NCBI GenBank assembly: GCA_030038475.1
Contig: JASHOU010000165.1
Location: 1-61,618, forward strand
DNA from: Terriglobales bacterium
GTDB taxonomy: Bacteria; Acidobacteriota; Terriglobia; Terriglobales; Acidobacteriaceae
Reading direction: 5' to 3'
Length of the DNA: 61,618 bases
A model generated the notes under the pieces. The model did not search any database and was not told the DNA's origin. It was given only the letters and a program-made list of their open reading frames with translations. Positions 17,649 to 24,478 of the stretch are shown here, in pieces (position 1 is the stretch's first letter; every line of letters begins with the position of its first letter). The translations under genes were made by a program, and so were the position numbers.

Positions 17649-18323
17649 TTATCCCCGAATTTTCCCGGAATACAACGCCATGCCCACGACGGCGTCAATC
17701 CCCAACGCGTCGAGACTGTCGATTTCGTTTTGTTCGGTGATACCGCCGGCCACCACCAAATGCCGACGCGTGGCGCGCCGAATGGCATGAACCGTCTCCA
17801 TCGGAATACCGCCCATCAAGCCCTCGGTGTCGATATGCGTATAAAGAAATGTCTCGCAGAAAGGCTCCAGCTCGCGAATCATGTCGAAGGCAGTGACAGC
17901 AGTATCCGTGCGCCATCCGTCGATTGCAACCCGGCCTCTGCGCGAATCCAGAGCAAACACCAGCGCCGCCGGCCGAATTGTGGCGGCCAGCGCACGCGCA
18001 TGGTCGCAGTTGATGCAGCCTTCGCGCAATAATGCAGAACCGATGATCACCTTGCGTGCGCCCAGGTTCAGAATTTCCTGTGCTGTTTCCACGTTGCGAA
18101 TGCCGCCACCAACCTGGCAATTGAGCCGGCCGACGATCCGCTTCACCAACTCGCGGTTATCACCAACGCCGCGCGCTGCATCAAGATCGATGAGTTGGAC
18201 TATGGGGTACTTCGAAAAGCGCTCGATCCAATAATCGAAATTGTCGAATTCCAGTTTCTTTTTTTCACCCTGCACCAACTGCACGATCTTGCCGCCCATC
18301 AGATCGATCGATGGAATCAGCAT
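17649..18323 (-). CDS. hisA: ProFAR isomerase HisA
   Basis: A 224-residue (beta/alpha)8 barrel that isomerises ProFAR to PRFAR, the fourth step of histidine synthesis. The N-terminal catalytic Asp lies in [10 protein letters not shown]; the phosphate sites are VGGGIRN and VVAGGITE; the second acid lies in FALDSRRG. It is slightly shorter than typical HisA (about 240). The ATG at 18323 is favoured by a GAGGTG Shine-Dalgarno and lies inside the hisF end (7-base overlap); GTG 18329 is the alternative. It is the last biosynthetic gene of the his operon. Confidence 0.93.
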
Positions 18324-19087
18324 GGCCACCTCACCGGCACATTAGCGGCCTGCAGTTCGCGTTTCAGCTGTCCGATATTCTCGAGACCGAAATGGAAGAT
18401 AGAAGCGGCCAAAGCGGCGTCGGCATGTCCATCGCCGAACACGTCGATGAAGTGTTGCGGCGAACCGGCGCCGCCCGAGGCAATCACAGGAATGGAAACG
18501 GCATCGGCCACGCTCTGCGTCAACTCGCAATCGAAGCCGGCTTTGGTGCCGTCGCGGTCCATCGAAGTAAGCAGAATTTCCCCAGCACCGCAATCGGCCG
18601 CCTCGCGCGCCCAGAGAATCGCGTCACGGCCAGTCGGCGTGCGCCCGCCGGCAACGAACACCTCGAAACCGCCGTGGTCATTTTTCTTGCGTCTGGCGTC
18701 GATCGCCACCACGACCGCCTGCGACCCGAATCGAGCTGCTATTCTTCCGATCAGCGCCGGATCCCTCACCGCTGCCGAGTTGATAGCAATCTTGTCGGCG
18801 CCGGCGTCGAACACCGCCTCGGCATCGGCGAGCTCTCGGATCCCTCCGCCCACGGTAAATGGAACAAATAAACGGCGTGCCGTGCGTGCAACCAGGTCGA
18901 GCATGGTGCTGCGGCGATCGCGGGTCGCCGTGATATCGAGAAAAACGATTTCGTCCGCGCCATCGCGGGCATGAGCGGCGGCACATTCTGCCGGATCGCC
19001 GGCATCGCGCAGATTCACGAACTGCACTCCCTTAACGACGCGGCCGCCATCCACGTCAAGACAAGCAATGATGCGCTTGGTCAGCAC
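18317..19087 (-). CDS. hisF: Imidazole glycerol phosphate synthase cyclase subunit HisF
   Basis: A 256-residue barrel enzyme that uses ammonia from HisH to convert PRFAR to imidazole glycerol phosphate and AICAR. Motifs: [12 protein letters not shown] with catalytic Asp11, [18 protein letters not shown] with the second Asp, and [11 protein letters not shown]. The start is GTG at 19087 with a GGAG upstream. A 51-base gap to hisH contains an 11-base repeat. Confidence 0.96.
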
Positions 19088-19120
19088 CGATCGACTCCAT
19101 AGATTTGCCCCAAACGACTG

Positions 19121-19146
19121 GCCTCAAAATTATTTGCCTCAAAATT
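19121..19146. repeat. Direct repeat GCCTCAAAATT, two copies
   Basis: Copies at 19121-19131 and 19136-19146. The second copy covers the hisH stop codon, so part of the HisH C-terminus is repeat-derived. Confidence 0.8.
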
Positions 19147-19762
19147 CGGCCTCGCAGAAATTGCTCAGAATCTGCAGTCCCACCGTCCAAGATTTTTCCG
19201 GATGAAACTGAACTCCGAAGATGTTGTCTTGCTCGACGACGGCAGAGAATTGCGTTCCGTATTCGGTCGCCGCAGTTGTGCAGCCGACCACCGGCGCGTG
19301 AAACGAATGCGTGTAGTAGACAAACGAATCGGGCGCAACATTGCGCAACAACCGCGACCCTTCACGCACCGACAACGAGTTCCATCCCACGTGCGGCGAT
19401 TTCACCGACGACGGAAATAGCCGGCATCGGCCGGCAAAGATTCCCGCGCCCGCACACTCGGGAGCTTCGTCACTGCCCTCGAACAGCCACTGCATTCCCA
19501 GGCAAATCCCCAGGAACGGCGTGCCGGATTTTGCCTTGTGCAGCACGGCTTGCCGCAGGCCGGTATTGTCAAGTCCGCTCAACGCCGAAAAGTGGCCGAC
19601 GCCGGGCAGCACGATCTTGTCCGCGGTGGCAACGATTTCAGGCTGCGTGGTTTGCACAACTTTGGCGCCGAGATAGTCCAGCGCCTTCTTCACGGAATTC
19701 AAGTTCCCGGCGCCGTAATCGACGAGCGCGATCGTGGAAGCGCGGGCGGATGAAACAGTCAT
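19139..19762 (-). CDS. hisH: Imidazole glycerol phosphate synthase glutaminase subunit HisH
   Basis: A 207-residue class I glutamine amidotransferase that supplies ammonia to HisF. The triad is visible: Cys87 (GICLGMQ), His187 and Glu189 (FHPEKS). The N-terminal [11 protein letters not shown] and VLPGVGHF are family signatures. The ATG overlaps the hisB stop as ATGA, indicating coupled translation. Confidence 0.96.
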
Positions 19763-20388
19763 AAAAGACCCTTGGTGCTCGGTAACATGCGCGCCAGGCG
19801 GCGGTCACGCGAGCATGCCACACGAAGAGCTCGAGCGAAAGCCTTGAACAATGCTTCGATCTTGTGATGGCTGGAGCGTCCGTAGAGCACTCGCACGTGA
19901 ACGTTTGCGCGCGCGCCGCGAGCGAACCCTTCAAAGAAATCGCACACCAGTTCGCTCTGTAAATCGCCGACTCGCGCCGCTCGTACCTTAGTCTGAGCCA
20001 CGGCCACCGCGCGACCGCCAAAATCGACTGCCGCGAGGCCTAAAGTCTCATCCATGGTCATCAAAAAATAACCCGCGCGCAGAATTCCGCGCCGGTCGCC
20101 CAAAGCGCGATCGAACGCCTCACCCAACGCGATCCCAACGTCTTCCACGGTGTGGTGCTGGTCAACATCCAGATCGCCGCGAGCGGCGAGTTTCAAGTCA
20201 AACGCGCCGTGACGTGCGAATAGTTCGAGCATGTGGTCGAGAAAACGGATTCCGGTAGAAACTTCATATTTGCCGCGACCATCGATGTTCAGCGCAATCT
20301 GAATCTCTGTCTCGGTGGTTGTGCGATGGAGTTTCGCCTTCCTCACACTCGCATGCAAATTTCTTACCGCTGCGCGCGCCTCAAGCAT
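19759..20388 (-). CDS. hisB: Imidazoleglycerol-phosphate dehydratase HisB
   Basis: A 209-residue single-function HisB (dehydratase only, no phosphatase domain). Metal-binding motifs: [25 protein letters not shown] and [20 protein letters not shown]. The start has a GGAG Shine-Dalgarno; the first about 15 residues extend beyond the usual R-x-T-x-E-T start. It overlaps hisD by 8 bases and hisH by 4. Confidence 0.95.
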
Positions 20389-21670
20389 GGGAACTCCTCA
20401 CTCGGAACGCCTCGGCATGTCCGCGCAGGCCTTCTGCGGTCGCCAGCACTATGCCGTGAGCCCCAATGCTTTCGATTCCCTCGCGCGAGAGTTGCTGGCA
20501 GCCGATGACGCGGACAAAATCGAGCACGCTGAGTCCGCCACGTATCCGTGCCATCGCTGCCGTCGGCAACACATGGTTGGTTCCGGAGACGTAGTCGCCC
20601 GCAGCCTGAGGAGTGAACTCGTCGAGAAAAATCGCGCCCGCATGTTGCACGGCGGGCGCCAGTTCCGCCGGGACCGTGAGATGCTCCGGGGCGATGCGAT
20701 TCGCCATTTCGACCGCCTGCTCGAGCGAAGCGGCCAAAAGAATTGCCCCGCGAGTCGAGAGCGATTGGGCAGCGATCGGATTCGCCCTGGTACGCATCTG
20801 CACTTCACTCTGAACGCTCTTCGCTAAAGCTTTCGAAGTCGTGATGAAGACGCAGAGCGCGTCGGGATCGTGCTCCGCCTGCGCCGCCAGATCGCAAGCA
20901 ATGCAAGCAGGATCGCCGTCCGCACTGATAACAACGGCTTCGGTAGGACCGGCGAGAAATTCGATGGCACAGTCGAAGGCCACTATTTTCTTGGCAGCAG
21001 TTACGTAGCGATTGCCGGGACCGACAATCTTGTCGACGCGCGGAATTTCTTCCGTGCCATAAGCCAGAGCGGCGATGGCCTGCGCTCCGCCAATCCGGTA
21101 GAACTCTCGCACGCCGAGGAATGCGGCCGCCGCCAAGGTAGCCTGCCCGGGATGTGGAGAGACGACTCGAATCTGCCGGACACCGGCGACTTGCGCCGGA
21201 ATCACGGTCATCAGCACCGTCGATGGTAAAGGATAGCGGCCGCCGGGGACATAACATCCTACCGACTCCAGCGGACGCACCAATTGCCCGATGCTGACGC
21301 CGGGCTGAATTTCGCGGCGCCACTCCTCTGGCGTCTGCCACTCCGCATAACGGCGGATATTGTCCGCAGCCAGTTTGATTGCTTCTCGTAATTCTTGATC
21401 CGTCTGCTCCCACGCATTGTGGAGTTCTTCCTCGGGAACACGCAGCGGCTCGCCCTTGGCCAATCCGTCCCAACGCGTGGCGTAGCGGCGCACCGCACGA
21501 TCGCCGTTACGGCGGACGTCATTCACAATGCGGCGTACCGCCGGCTCGACTTCTGCGAGATCGGTGGCGCCGCGCGAGGCAAGCGCCGTCAGCAAACGAT
21601 CCCGCTCATCGCCCTGAAAAATTCGCATCACGCTATTGCGCCGTGGATGATGGCGCGCCGGCTTCCGCAT
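20381..21670 (-). CDS. hisD: Histidinol dehydrogenase HisD
   Basis: A 429-residue zinc enzyme performing the last two oxidations to histidine. Signatures: [61 protein letters not shown] and SGTNHVLPT. The ATG at 21670 has a GGGGAAA upstream; ATG 21628 (MRIFQ) is an alternative. The open frame continues into hisG but those residues do not look like HisD. A 14-base gap separates it from hisG. Confidence 0.94.
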
Positions 21671-21684
21671 TAATTTTCCCCGCG

Positions 21685-22554
21685 TCACAAGACCACCTTG
21701 TTGAGCGGATATTCGACGATGCCCTGAGCGTTGGCTTGTTTCAGTTTCGGAATCAGCGACCAGGCTGCTTGCTCCTCGATGACGGTGTTCACTGCGACCC
21801 ATTCGCCATCGGCTAGCGGAGCCACAGTTGGATTTTGCAGCGCGGGCAAAAGACGAAGAACCGCAGGCAAGTCTGGTTTGCGCACGTTGAGCATCAGTCC
21901 CACGCGTCCCAGCGCGGCCATCGCTCCGTTCAGCATCACCGCCAGGTTCTCAATCTTTTGCCGCCGCGTCGAATCGGCCCACGCGGCCTTGTTCGCTACC
22001 AGCTGCGTATTCGACTCGAGCACCGTTTGCAGAATTCTCAGATGATTCGCATGCAGCGAACTACCCGTCTCCGTAACCTCGACAATGGCGTCGGCCAGCA
22101 ATGGCGGCTTGACTTCAGTTGCACCCCAGGAGAACTCAACGCGGACGTCAACGTTCCGCTGCGCAAAGTAATTGCGCGTAAAGCTCACCAGCTCCGTAGC
22201 AATGATGCGGCCGTTAAGGTCTTCCAGTTTCTGGAAAGGAGAATCCTCGGGAACAGCGAGCACCCACCTGACTCTACCCATGCTTTGTTTCGAATAAATC
22301 AGATCACTCACTTTCACGACCTCAAGGCCGCTTTCGAGCACCCAATCGAGTCCGGTCAAGCCGGCATCCAAAGCGCCGTGTTCGACGTAACGCGCCATCT
22401 CCTGCGCGCGAATCAACATGCATTCGATTTCGGGATCATCAGTGGCGGCGAAATAGGTGCGGGCGTTGGTGTACACGTGCAGGCCGGCGCGCGTGAACAG
22501 CTTCAACGTCGCCTCCTGCAAGCTCCCTTTCGGAATGCCAAGCCGCAGTTTCAT
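21685..22554 (-). CDS. hisG: ATP phosphoribosyltransferase HisG (long form)
   Basis: A 289-residue first enzyme of histidine synthesis. The N-terminal [26 protein letters not shown] and [11 protein letters not shown] define the catalytic domains. The about 75-residue C-terminal ACT-like domain marks the long hexameric form, which is feedback-inhibited by histidine and needs no HisZ. The start codon overlaps the hisI stop (ATGA). Confidence 0.95.
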
Positions 22555-22943
22555 CGCTCCACCTTTTGTTCCGCGGGCTTCGCTCGCTCAACCTGCGCAG
22601 AACCAGACGCCAATCTGGTGAGCGGGAGCTCCTCGGTAAAGCAGGAGCGCGTCCCCTTATGGCAAACCTTCCCATCGCCCAACACACGGACGCGCAGCAG
22701 CACTGTATCGCGGTCGCAGTCGGCGAAGGCATCAACAACTTGCAGGCGATTGCCCGACGTTTCTCCTTTGGTCCATAATTTTTTCCGGGTGCGGCTGTAG
22801 AAGGTCACAAATTCGCTGCGCAGTGTCATATTCAACGCGTCAGAATTCATGAACCCCACCATCAGCATTTCGCCGTTATCGGCATCCTGAATGACCGCAG
22901 GCACCAGGCCCTGCATCTTGTCGAAATCGATATCAATGTTCAT
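22551..22943 (-). CDS. hisI: Phosphoribosyl-AMP cyclohydrolase HisI
   Basis: A 130-residue zinc enzyme that opens the purine ring of PR-AMP. Motifs: [20 protein letters not shown]-type [10 protein letters not shown] and [10 protein letters not shown] (zinc-binding Cys and His). No HisE pyrophosphohydrolase domain is fused, so hisE, hisC and the histidinol phosphatase must be elsewhere. It is the first structural gene after the His leader and attenuator. Confidence 0.95.
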
Positions 22944-22985
22944 CGGATTAGCCTAAACGTCCTTATGAGATTTTGAAAAACTTCC

Positions 22986-23028
22986 TGAAAAGCAAAAAGC
23001 CCGCTGCGCATTCGCCGCCGGCGGGCTT
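22986..23028 (-). terminator. His operon attenuator terminator
   Basis: On the minus strand AAGCCCGC (23028-23021) pairs with GCGGGCTT (23004-22997), with a 16-base loop, followed by TTTGCTTTT. It lies between the His-rich leader peptide and hisI. The 5' arm can instead pair with GGCGGG inside the last codons of the leader, giving an antiterminator. Confidence 0.85.
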
Positions 23029-23055
23029 GGATTTCCTATTCTTACGATTGCTTGG

Positions 23056-23130
23056 TTATCCGTTGCCCCCCGCCGACACGCTCACCGTATGGTGATGATG
23101 ATGGTGACGGTGCTGGGTCAACTGATCCAT
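23056..23130 (-). CDS. hisL: His operon leader peptide
   Basis: A 24-residue peptide whose core is HRHHHHHH: seven His codons (residues 7 and 9-14), then TVSVSAGGNG and TAA. It ends 27 bases before the attenuator terminator and 112 bases before hisI. This is the classic his attenuation design: ribosome stalling at His codons favours the antiterminator. The ATG at 23130 is only about 4 bases from the predicted transcription start, with no room for a Shine-Dalgarno, so translation is probably nearly leaderless. Confidence 0.9.
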   Translation of the reverse strand: MDQLTQHRHHHHHHTVSVSAGGNG

Positions 23131-23140
23131 ACTAAGAACG

Positions 23141-23169
23141 ATACTAGGGAAGGCGCTGAGCATTGTCAA
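23141..23169 (-). promoter_or_regulatory. His operon promoter
   Basis: On the minus strand TTGACA (23169-23164), a 17-base spacer, then TAGTAT (23146-23141). The predicted start near 23134 sits just before the leader ATG at 23130. Confidence 0.75.
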
Positions 23170-23296
23170 TCCGTGGTTGTGTCCCAATCTGCTTTTCCAG
23201 CACGGCGACATAGAGATAGCAAACATCTTGAATTGGCAAAAAAGCAGAAATGAAATATCTGCCAAGAAGTTGAGTATCTTCGTGCCGGATTGGGCC

Positions 23297-23321
23297 TCTC
23301 CGTGTCTCTGTCCTCCGTGGC
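23297..23321. repeat. Dispersed intergenic repeat of the CACGGAGACAC type
   Basis: CTCCGTGTCTCTGTCCTCCGTGG lies between the his promoter and the beta-barrel gene. The same unit forms an inverted pair around 38098-38285. Confidence 0.6.
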
Positions 23322-23355
23322 AGAAAGGTGAATTACATGACCTGTGATCGCGCTG

Positions 23356-23976
23356 TTATCGCCTCCCAAAACGGTAAGCGATGCTGGTAACCAGGCGAAT
23401 ATTATTTTGGAACGTCATTTCCGCGTTGGAATTGGCGAAGGTAGTGCGCAGATAGTCGCCTCCGACTCGAATAGCAAAACGCCCCGGGAGATTGCGTTCG
23501 ACTCCGCCGCCAATGGCATAGGAAAATCGCATCACGGTTCCACCCAGGTAGTAAGTTCCTTTGACCGGAACGGCGCTGTTCACCACGCTGATGCCGGCCA
23601 GCGTATGAACAAAGACCCGAGTTCTTCCGAAGTCGACCGGGTGGAAGGTGGCGCCCGCCAGCAGACTCCCCACGTTGCCGCTGTGCGCGGTGCCAAGCAC
23701 GCTGCCTGCCCGCGCATAGCTTGAATCGACGGAGATTCCCCAGTGCGGACTCAGATCCATCAACGCATTGGCATCCAGTCCGCTCAAGCCGATGCGTTGC
23801 CGCGAGGGAGTATCCAGATCGAGATAGGTATAACCGGCGCTTGCTTCAAACTCGGGACCGGTAGCCGCCGCTCGCGCCGGCCCGAGTAAGGATTCCTGTC
23901 CGAGAAGCGGTGAGATCAGAACTAGAACCAGAAAGATACGTGTTAAGACCAGAAAGATGCGTACGATTCTCTTCAT
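23356..23976 (-). CDS. Outer-membrane beta-barrel protein
   Basis: 206 residues with a signal peptide followed by alternating strands (FEASAGYTYLDLD, YAIGGGVERNL, FAIRVGGDYLRT) and an end on VTSIAYRFGRR, typical of 8-strand OmpA/OmpW-like barrels. A GGGGATAA Shine-Dalgarno precedes the ATG. The signal peptide contains a duplicated RIFLVL unit from a 21-base direct repeat. The function is unknown. Confidence 0.75.
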   Translation of the reverse strand: MKRIVRIFLVLTRIFLVLVLISPLLGQESLLGPARAAATGPEFEASAGYTYLDLDTPSRQRIGLSGLDANALMDLSPHWGISVDSSYARAGSVLGTAHSGNVGSLLAGATFHPVDFGRTRVFVHTLAGISVVNSAVPVKGTYYLGGTVMRFSYAIGGGVERNLPGRFAIRVGGDYLRTTFANSNAEMTFQNNIRLVTSIAYRFGRR

Positions 23977-24478
23977 CGGCTTATCCCCGCAGCGATTTGA
24001 TCGAACGGCTTTGGTAAAGCATTTTTGTGACCACGCAGTTGCGACGCGTGATGAACGGTGAACACGCGAGTAAGTCGAACAATGGAAAGCAAATTGAGAT
24101 TAGCGGTGAACCGAAATCAACGATGCTCGTGCGATCCAGTTCTGGATTGGGAGTAATGGAGACCAAAACTGAAAAGGCTTTTCGGGCCTTTCCTGGGCGG
24201 ATTGTTGCGGGCCCGTTTGTCCGGCTTGGAGATCTTTCAATCCGGCGGCATTCGCCAGAGTGTCTCAGTCCAACTGGATCAAGCCGTTGCGCAGAGCCAA
24301 ATTTGGCGATGTACGTCCTAATTCCCGCTTGTTATCCTAGAGTCAGGCAGAAATGACCAAGGTCCAAGGCGCGCGGGATAAGTTAGCTCAGAACGCGCCC
24401 TTCGGGTCGGGCAGCTTACCAGTCGGTGCCAATCGCAGATCGTTCTCGACAGAGAGCAACATCGCGAACTATTAAACC
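23977..24478. other. Intergenic region, no gene recognised
   Basis: 502 bases between divergently transcribed genes. Short open frames exist on both strands but their residue composition is not protein-like. A hairpin AAAGGC/GCCTTT near 24172-24192 is the only structure noted. Promoters for both flanking genes should lie here; none was convincing. Confidence 0.5.

Follow-up and report, generated by a model that had tools for sequence, protein, structure and literature searches.

The his operon of the soil bacterium examined here appears to be controlled by a ribosome-mediated transcription attenuator whose transcript would start 0 to 5 nt before the AUG of a His-rich leader peptide and on which the ribosome would load without a Shine-Dalgarno sequence. 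We place the probability of this reading at about 0.82. Sequence analysis and comparison with relatives bring out its predicted components, namely, the leader ORF, the position of its promoter, the absence of a Shine-Dalgarno sequence, the terminator, and a covarying antiterminator; by its makeup the attenuator would respond to histidine. Judged from these comparisons, the his leader is probably translated in a leaderless or nearly leaderless manner in most of the lineages examined. In the DNA described here, the leader AUG probably lies a few nucleotides from the 5' end and not exactly at it.

Organization of the his operon head

The window, i.e., the whole stretch of DNA that was analyzed (61,618 nt), is contig 36 of a 4.46-Mb assembly that is 98.4% complete. 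The entire leader feature and the operon lie on its minus strand, with the genes in the order hisI-G-D-B-H-F-A situated 3' of the leader and terminator. Among 76 HisI loci compared, the nearest relative of the HisI encoded in the window is that of an Acidobacteriaceae metagenome-assembled genome (75%). The features are as follows.

23164..23169, minus strand: -35 element TTGACA, from the sequence; TTGAC is kept at the same place in relatives
23141..23146, minus strand: -10 element TAGTAT after a 17-nt spacer, from the sequence and a promoter scan in relatives
23133..23134, minus strand: predicted transcription start, 3 to 4 nt 5' of the leader ATG, placed from the -10 position
23056..23130, minus strand: his leader peptide ORF, MDQLTQHRHHHHHHTVSVSAGGNG, 24 codons plus stop (ATG at 23130, stop at 23058-23056), from the ORF and its conservation in the family
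23089..23112, minus strand: sensor codons, His-Arg-His6, from the sequence
23070..23079, minus strand: predicted antiterminator strand GTGTCGGCGG, within the final leader codons, from pairing and covariation
22999..23026, minus strand: predicted terminator hairpin GCCCGCCGGCGGCGAATGCGCAGCGGGC, with a 5' arm that would also pair with the antiterminator strand, from folding
22988..22998, minus strand: terminator U-run TTTTTGCTTTT, from the sequence
22551..22943, minus strand: hisI, the first structural gene (ATG at 22943), from the ORF and HisI matches
17649..22554, minus strand: hisG, hisD, hisB, hisH, hisF, and hisA, the remainder of the operon, from ORFs named by reading their translations

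The earlier note on this DNA had reported seven His codons, a terminator with a U-run before hisI, and a TTGACA-17-TAGTAT promoter, giving no strand. All three are present on the minus strand: the codons at 23112-23089, the stem at 23026-22999 (-16.7 kcal/mol), and the two hexamers at 23169-23164 and 23146-23141. Farther upstream, between a beta-barrel-like gene and the his promoter, the intergenic stretch ccacggaggacagagacacggagagg (23295-23320, minus strand) resembles by look a dispersed repeat.

Conservation of the leader ORF

HisI matches were found in 111 of the 150 genomes of the window's GTDB family, the 39 genomes that have no such match falling outside the leader count. Five of the 111 (G051, G052, G100, G137, and G149) were left out as fragments or contig ends, and 106 loci were taken for analysis. 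A His-rich leader ORF occurs upstream of hisI in 105 of these, and the remaining locus is cut by a contig end that leaves only 63 nt before hisI. The 105 leaders all differ from each other over 75 nt and range from 19 to 30 codons. Their conserved start is an ATG located 9 to 18 nt before the first His codon, at -15 in 74 loci, -12 in 15, -18 in 11, and -9 in 6, in a tally in which one locus can hold more than one candidate ATG. The family thus displays the codon run for the product amino acid, in a short ORF 5' of the operon, that is typical of his-type attenuators.

Promoter position and predicted 5' end

The window promoter matches the consensus at 10 of 12 positions, and 10 nt separate its -10 hexamer from the leader ATG. 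Transcription starting at the 6th to 9th nucleotide after the -10 element would yield a 5' UTR of 2 to 5 nt; the 8th is an A at 23133, which would make the UTR 3 nt. As a prediction, then, the claim of the earlier note that the transcript starts about 4 bases from the leader ATG is right. The promoter match is not significant by itself, being the sole such site in 23000-24100, where shuffled sequences average 0.9; likewise, 22700-23600 holds two promoter-like sites versus 0.9 in shuffles. It rises above chance because it is conserved across the family loci.

Across the family loci, a blind scan ignored the start codon and searched a 250-nt stretch ending at the first His codon for sigma-70 promoters. 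In 104 of 105 loci the -10 element of the best promoter ended 10 to 45 nt before the first His codon, a count that also holds with limits of 15 to 40 nt; the gap between the -10 element and the start was 8 to 10 nt in 62 loci and 4 to 16 nt in 101. The mean score was 10.4, versus 5.8 for dinucleotide shuffles, and the real score was reached in 86 of 2,100 shuffles. When the search was anchored at the start, a TANNNT ended 5 to 12 nt 5' of the leader start in 92 of 105 loci; mononucleotide shuffles do so at a rate of 13%, and among 91 hisI starts 3 do. With the further demand of a TTGAC 16 to 19 nt upstream of it, 91 of 105 leaders still qualified, versus 0.08% of shuffles and none of the 91 hisI starts. 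Outside the family set, the anchored test settles on whichever candidate ATG first shows a -10 element, which favors matches where several ATGs exist. A -10 element at a fixed short distance from the start codon, as expected of leaderless transcripts, is accordingly the rule, the exceptions being families f17 and f21 and the leader L252.

The blind scan misses on Escherichia coli hisL, where the site that it chose lies 82 nt from the ATG. Among 32 leaders outside the family set, it gave a gap of 4 to 16 nt in 26, including L267, whose chosen promoter is 121 nt from the His codons. In view of these two picks, the start-anchored count is preferred outside the family set. No paper on mapped transcription starts in Acidobacteriota was found in the open-access literature searched.

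Absence of a Shine-Dalgarno sequence

Shine-Dalgarno strength was measured as the pairing of nucleotides -22 to -4 with the 16S tail. Leader starts averaged -1.33 kcal/mol (n = 105), no better than their shuffled counterparts (-1.86), and only 8 of 105 reached -5, as did 12% of shuffles. The hisI starts averaged -5.58 kcal/mol versus -4.27 for shuffles (n = 99), and 69 of 99 reached -5; the two classes of starts differ at p = 1e-24, with related genomes counted as independent. The window leader itself scores +0.7. Outside the family, 4 of 38 leaders reach -5, namely, L254 and L255 of family f44 and L325 and L326 of family f17, which makes f17 and this pair from f44 the exceptions to the absence of a Shine-Dalgarno sequence before the leader start. 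A Shine-Dalgarno sequence conserved in relatives, which the earlier note named as a finding that would speak against its reading, is not seen.

Terminator and antiterminator

The full-length leader of the window folds into the terminator. An automatic search detected a terminator hairpin with a U-run in 86 of 105 family loci (83 with a stability of at least -14 kcal/mol, three weak) and no terminator in the other 19. An intrinsic terminator between the leader stop and the first gene, the second hallmark of his-type attenuators, is therefore widely present in the family. A short motif like AGCAATCAT (alignment A1, columns 96-135) recurs in many leaders between the leader stop and the terminator.

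The antiterminator was analyzed in an alignment of 65 nonredundant leaders drawn from the 83 with a clear terminator. In the predicted helix, 92.4% of cells pair and 25 cells carry changes in both strands, with a covariation score of 0.235. None of 500 shuffles attained any of these three values. Two of the five measures are weaker: 3 pairs changed on both sides (45/500 shuffles) and 14 further pair types (13/500). Sliding the partner lowers pairing to 30 to 44%. The duplex scores -21.1 with a leader's own partner, -19.2 with swapped partners, and -13.9 with shuffled strands (n = 83), and the own partner outperforms the average swapped partner in 64 of 83 leaders and shuffled strands in 80.

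In folding predictions for all 83 leaders, a ribosome placed on the His codons leaves the 5' arm of the terminator more sequestered than does one on the stop codon, by a difference that exceeds 0.3 in only 39. Mean sequestration is 0.79 for the His stall, 0.49 for the stop stall, and 0.69 for the free RNA; given this last value, the folding model by itself does not predict termination without translation. Comparison and folding together thus suggest an antiterminator that would exclude the terminator and become accessible upon ribosome stalling at the sensor codons.

Distribution in Acidobacteriota

All 9 contigs with Acidobacteriota titles among the 76 HisI loci have the leader. Their titles include Acidobacteriaceae, Acidiferrales, Sulfopaludibacter, Bryobacteraceae, and Terriglobia, and none of these leaders repeats one from the other genomes sampled. 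The other 67 loci gave a single leader score, which was judged spurious since it lies within an apparent coding gene. The leader is also found in 20 of 20 loci from seven other families (f2, f15, f24, f33, f44, f46, and f75), picked mostly because HisI stands alone there. Model R1 matched 52 of 297 genomes of the phylum, once each, two of the matches (G226 and G299) being false; within the window's family it matched 29 of 31 genomes, and the two that it missed also lack a HisI match. Reading eight places with R1 matches added six leaders, the two false ones having none. Of 30 HisG loci, 7 have a His-rich leader (L267, L269, L271, L273, L277, L286, and L289) and the other 23 have none; five of the seven were added to the set, because L271 duplicates L323 and L273, at a locus edge, was not counted.

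A TANNNT lies 7 to 12 nt before the start in 34 of the 40 leaders outside the family set, and at 8 to 10 nt in 32 of the 34. Among the first 38, it is found in 33 (at 9 nt in 14, 8 nt in 9, 10 nt in 8, and 7 and 12 nt in one each), versus 9% of shuffles; of the remaining two, L289 has it at 10 nt and L269 lacks it. Together with the 92 of 105 leaders within the family, this means that the comparison of leader and promoter positions proposed in the earlier note for acidobacterial his operons agrees with its reading in most lineages.

The six leaders without a -10 element at the expected place are L325 and L326 (f17), L267, L269, and L323 (f21), and L252. Family f17 is an exception to the leaderless rule. 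In its two genomes (G177, with L325, and G189, with L326), the first leader has a -10 gap of 18 and 17 nt, respectively, which implies a longer UTR, and a GAGG motif; two His-rich leader ORFs and two terminators stand in tandem before the his genes. In f21, all three readable leaders lack a TANNNT 5 to 12 nt before the start, and two of them, L267 and L269, precede the hisG match by about 270 nt instead of preceding hisI.

In the 30 best-scoring HisI loci of other families, the coding strand was scanned over an interval that began 1.5 kb ahead of the HisI match and ended just past its start, and no His-rich leader was found there. Given these, the 23 HisG loci without one, and the majority of genomes negative for R1, the attenuator is widespread, and universality does not follow. 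R1, or looking beside hisI or hisG, may overlook some leaders.

Candidate leaderless starts elsewhere in the genome

In the window's own genome, a TTGAC promoter directly before an ATG was matched 44 times. Replacing ATG by GTA gave 14 matches (controls, 14 to 17), replacing it by CAT gave 34, and the backwards pattern, which holds an ATG, gave 42. GTA is rare, CAT occurs as often as ATG when both strands are counted, and many CAT matches are the same places seen via CATG. In light of the CAT and backwards controls, it is not established that leaderless promoters are in excess here, and the counts for three further genomes of the family did not exceed the control (G032, 23 versus 28; G119, 33 versus 43; and G117, 25 versus 32). 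For three Acidobacteria, the accessible portion of Zheng et al. 2011 (PMC3160421) gives a prediction of 9.7 to 19.4% leaderless genes.

Reading 30 of the 44 matches revealed 20 that are open for at least 50 codons. Those recorded are L214, L217, L219, L221, L222, L227, L230, L235, L238, and L239, and by reading they include putative MarR-like and ArsR-like regulators and threonyl-tRNA synthetase-like, antitoxin-like, and transposase-like proteins. The gap between the -10 element and the ATG is exactly 6 nt, the commonest value, in 8 of the 20 ORFs, with a median of 6; the median for his leaders is 9 (p = 0.0008 for the family and p = 0.0003 for 33 others, in a comparison where n = 20 is small and the pattern is limited to gaps of 5 to 11). 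In most lineages examined, the his AUG is thus 2 to 4 nt farther from the -10 element than that of directly promoted ORFs in the window's genome, which suggests that the his leaders are a few nucleotides longer than a 5'-terminal AUG would make them.

Proposed mechanism and alternatives

On the basis of these observations, a mechanism can be conceived in which RNA polymerase starts 0 to 5 nt before the leader AUG and, as the 5' end emerges, a ribosome would load at once on the terminal or near-terminal AUG without a Shine-Dalgarno sequence. When His-tRNA is scarce, the ribosome would stall on the seven His codons. The strand GTGTCGGCGG, located at the 3' end of the leader ORF, would then be available for pairing with the terminator's 5' arm, and RNA polymerase would read on into hisI. 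When His-tRNA is plentiful, a ribosome reaching the stop codon would cover the GTGTCGGCGG strand and the terminator would form.

The same attenuator could in principle be transcribed from farther upstream, with a normal 5' UTR or with translation from an in-frame ATG at 23163, inside the promoter spacer; indeed, 21 of 105 family loci have an in-frame ATG or GTG 20 to 150 nt upstream with no stop between. We regard such an arrangement as improbable, because the best promoter of the 250 nt adjoins the 5' side of the leader ATG in all but one locus, no other promoter-like site occurs in 23000-24100 of the window, the conserved start is the ATG shortly before the His codons, and that start shows no Shine-Dalgarno signal. 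The ATG at 23163 was specifically rejected as the true start on account of the conserved ATG and promoter positions. A regulator of a different kind, i.e., a T-box or a protein-sensed RNA in which the His-rich ORF is incidental, has precedent in that his genes of other bacteria are controlled by T-boxes or HisR according to the available text of PMC9413887. We consider it highly improbable here, as every complete family locus examined has retained the His-rich ORF and the antiterminator strand falls within this ORF, an arrangement shared with attenuators controlled by ribosomes. The entire window is devoid of Rfam hits at gathering score, on which ground a T-box or a known Rfam leader was rejected.

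Closer to the near-leaderless attenuator that we favor is the proposal that the 5' UTR, though very short, is entered by the ribosome in the ordinary 30S or 70S-scanning manner and not by true initiation at a 5'-terminal AUG. The median his gap of 9, versus 6 in the 20 ORFs of the same genome, predicts an overhang of a few nucleotides, and the f17 leaders do have a longer UTR with GAGG; against this, a Shine-Dalgarno helix could not fit in a UTR of a few nucleotides, nor is one seen. We judge this route unlikely, and retain near-leaderless loading as the preferred account of the window leader. Within it, the holding of the AUG at 8 to 10 nt from the -10 element in most lineages might reflect a slowed or conditional form of near-leaderless initiation that times the ribosome relative to RNA polymerase and ties histidine supply to the pool of 70S ribosomes or initiation factors, with f17 using a Shine-Dalgarno-like start and two serial attenuators instead; we put this forward tentatively and with more doubt than belief. 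Since attenuation needs a ribosome loaded before the polymerase reaches the terminator, the his leader is a natural system in which to test how leaderless initiation keeps pace with transcription. Further, gene finders that expect a Shine-Dalgarno sequence and longer ORFs may miss such leaders.

Comparison with known attenuators

The acidobacterial leader shares with the enterobacterial hisL (RF00514) a His codon run in a short leader ORF, a terminator before the first his gene, and a competing antiterminator. The RF00514 model nevertheless scores only 16.9 bits against the window (gathering score, 49; E = 1.9), and the first gene is hisI and not hisG as in the enterobacterial operon. The distance from the -10 element to the AUG is 10 nt here versus 38 nt in E. 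coli K-12 hisL, whose -10 element we take to be TAGGTT. The earlier note had set the leader against the Shine-Dalgarno sequence of classic his leaders. By the same crude measure that of E. coli hisL scores -2.9 and is itself weak, so that it is chiefly the length of the 5' UTR that sets the two leaders apart. As far as the text available in PMC9413887 goes, his attenuators are known in Proteobacteria and have been proposed in some Firmicutes. Neither a his attenuator in Acidobacteriota nor a leaderless his leader was found described in our search of the open-access literature, which leaves subscription papers mostly uncovered. A trp leader was also sought in 29 TrpE loci, with no convincing one emerging.

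The tie between attenuation and leaderless initiation drawn in the earlier note is supported, but it is not new in itself: leaderless attenuator leaders are already known, and it is the case of histidine in Acidobacteriota for which we found no report in the open-access literature. Judging from the portions available of the respective papers, a close parallel is the trpL attenuator of Sinorhizobium meliloti, a leaderless transcript whose 5' end is exactly the ATG (PMC7298713); it likewise starts at or almost at the leader ATG and differs in sensing tryptophan and in belonging to the Alphaproteobacteria. In Streptomyces lividans, 7 of 8 listed attenuator leader peptides, none of them for histidine, are described as transcribed leaderless (accessible text of PMC8079986), and the same is stated of the ilvBNC leader peptide of Corynebacterium glutamicum (passages of PMC11857589 and PMC4046766). 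These actinobacterial leaders, as far as those excerpts present them, resemble the his leader in being amino acid rich and leaderless but come from another phylum and have other RNA sequences. The mycobacterial poly-cysteine leaderless short ORFs (Canestrari 2020, as cited in available parts of PMC13236596 and PMC9031893) are similar in that the operon is controlled by a preceding leaderless ORF with many codons for the amino acid that is sensed; the amino acid there is cysteine, and the accessible text of PMC13236596 calls the process translation attenuation.
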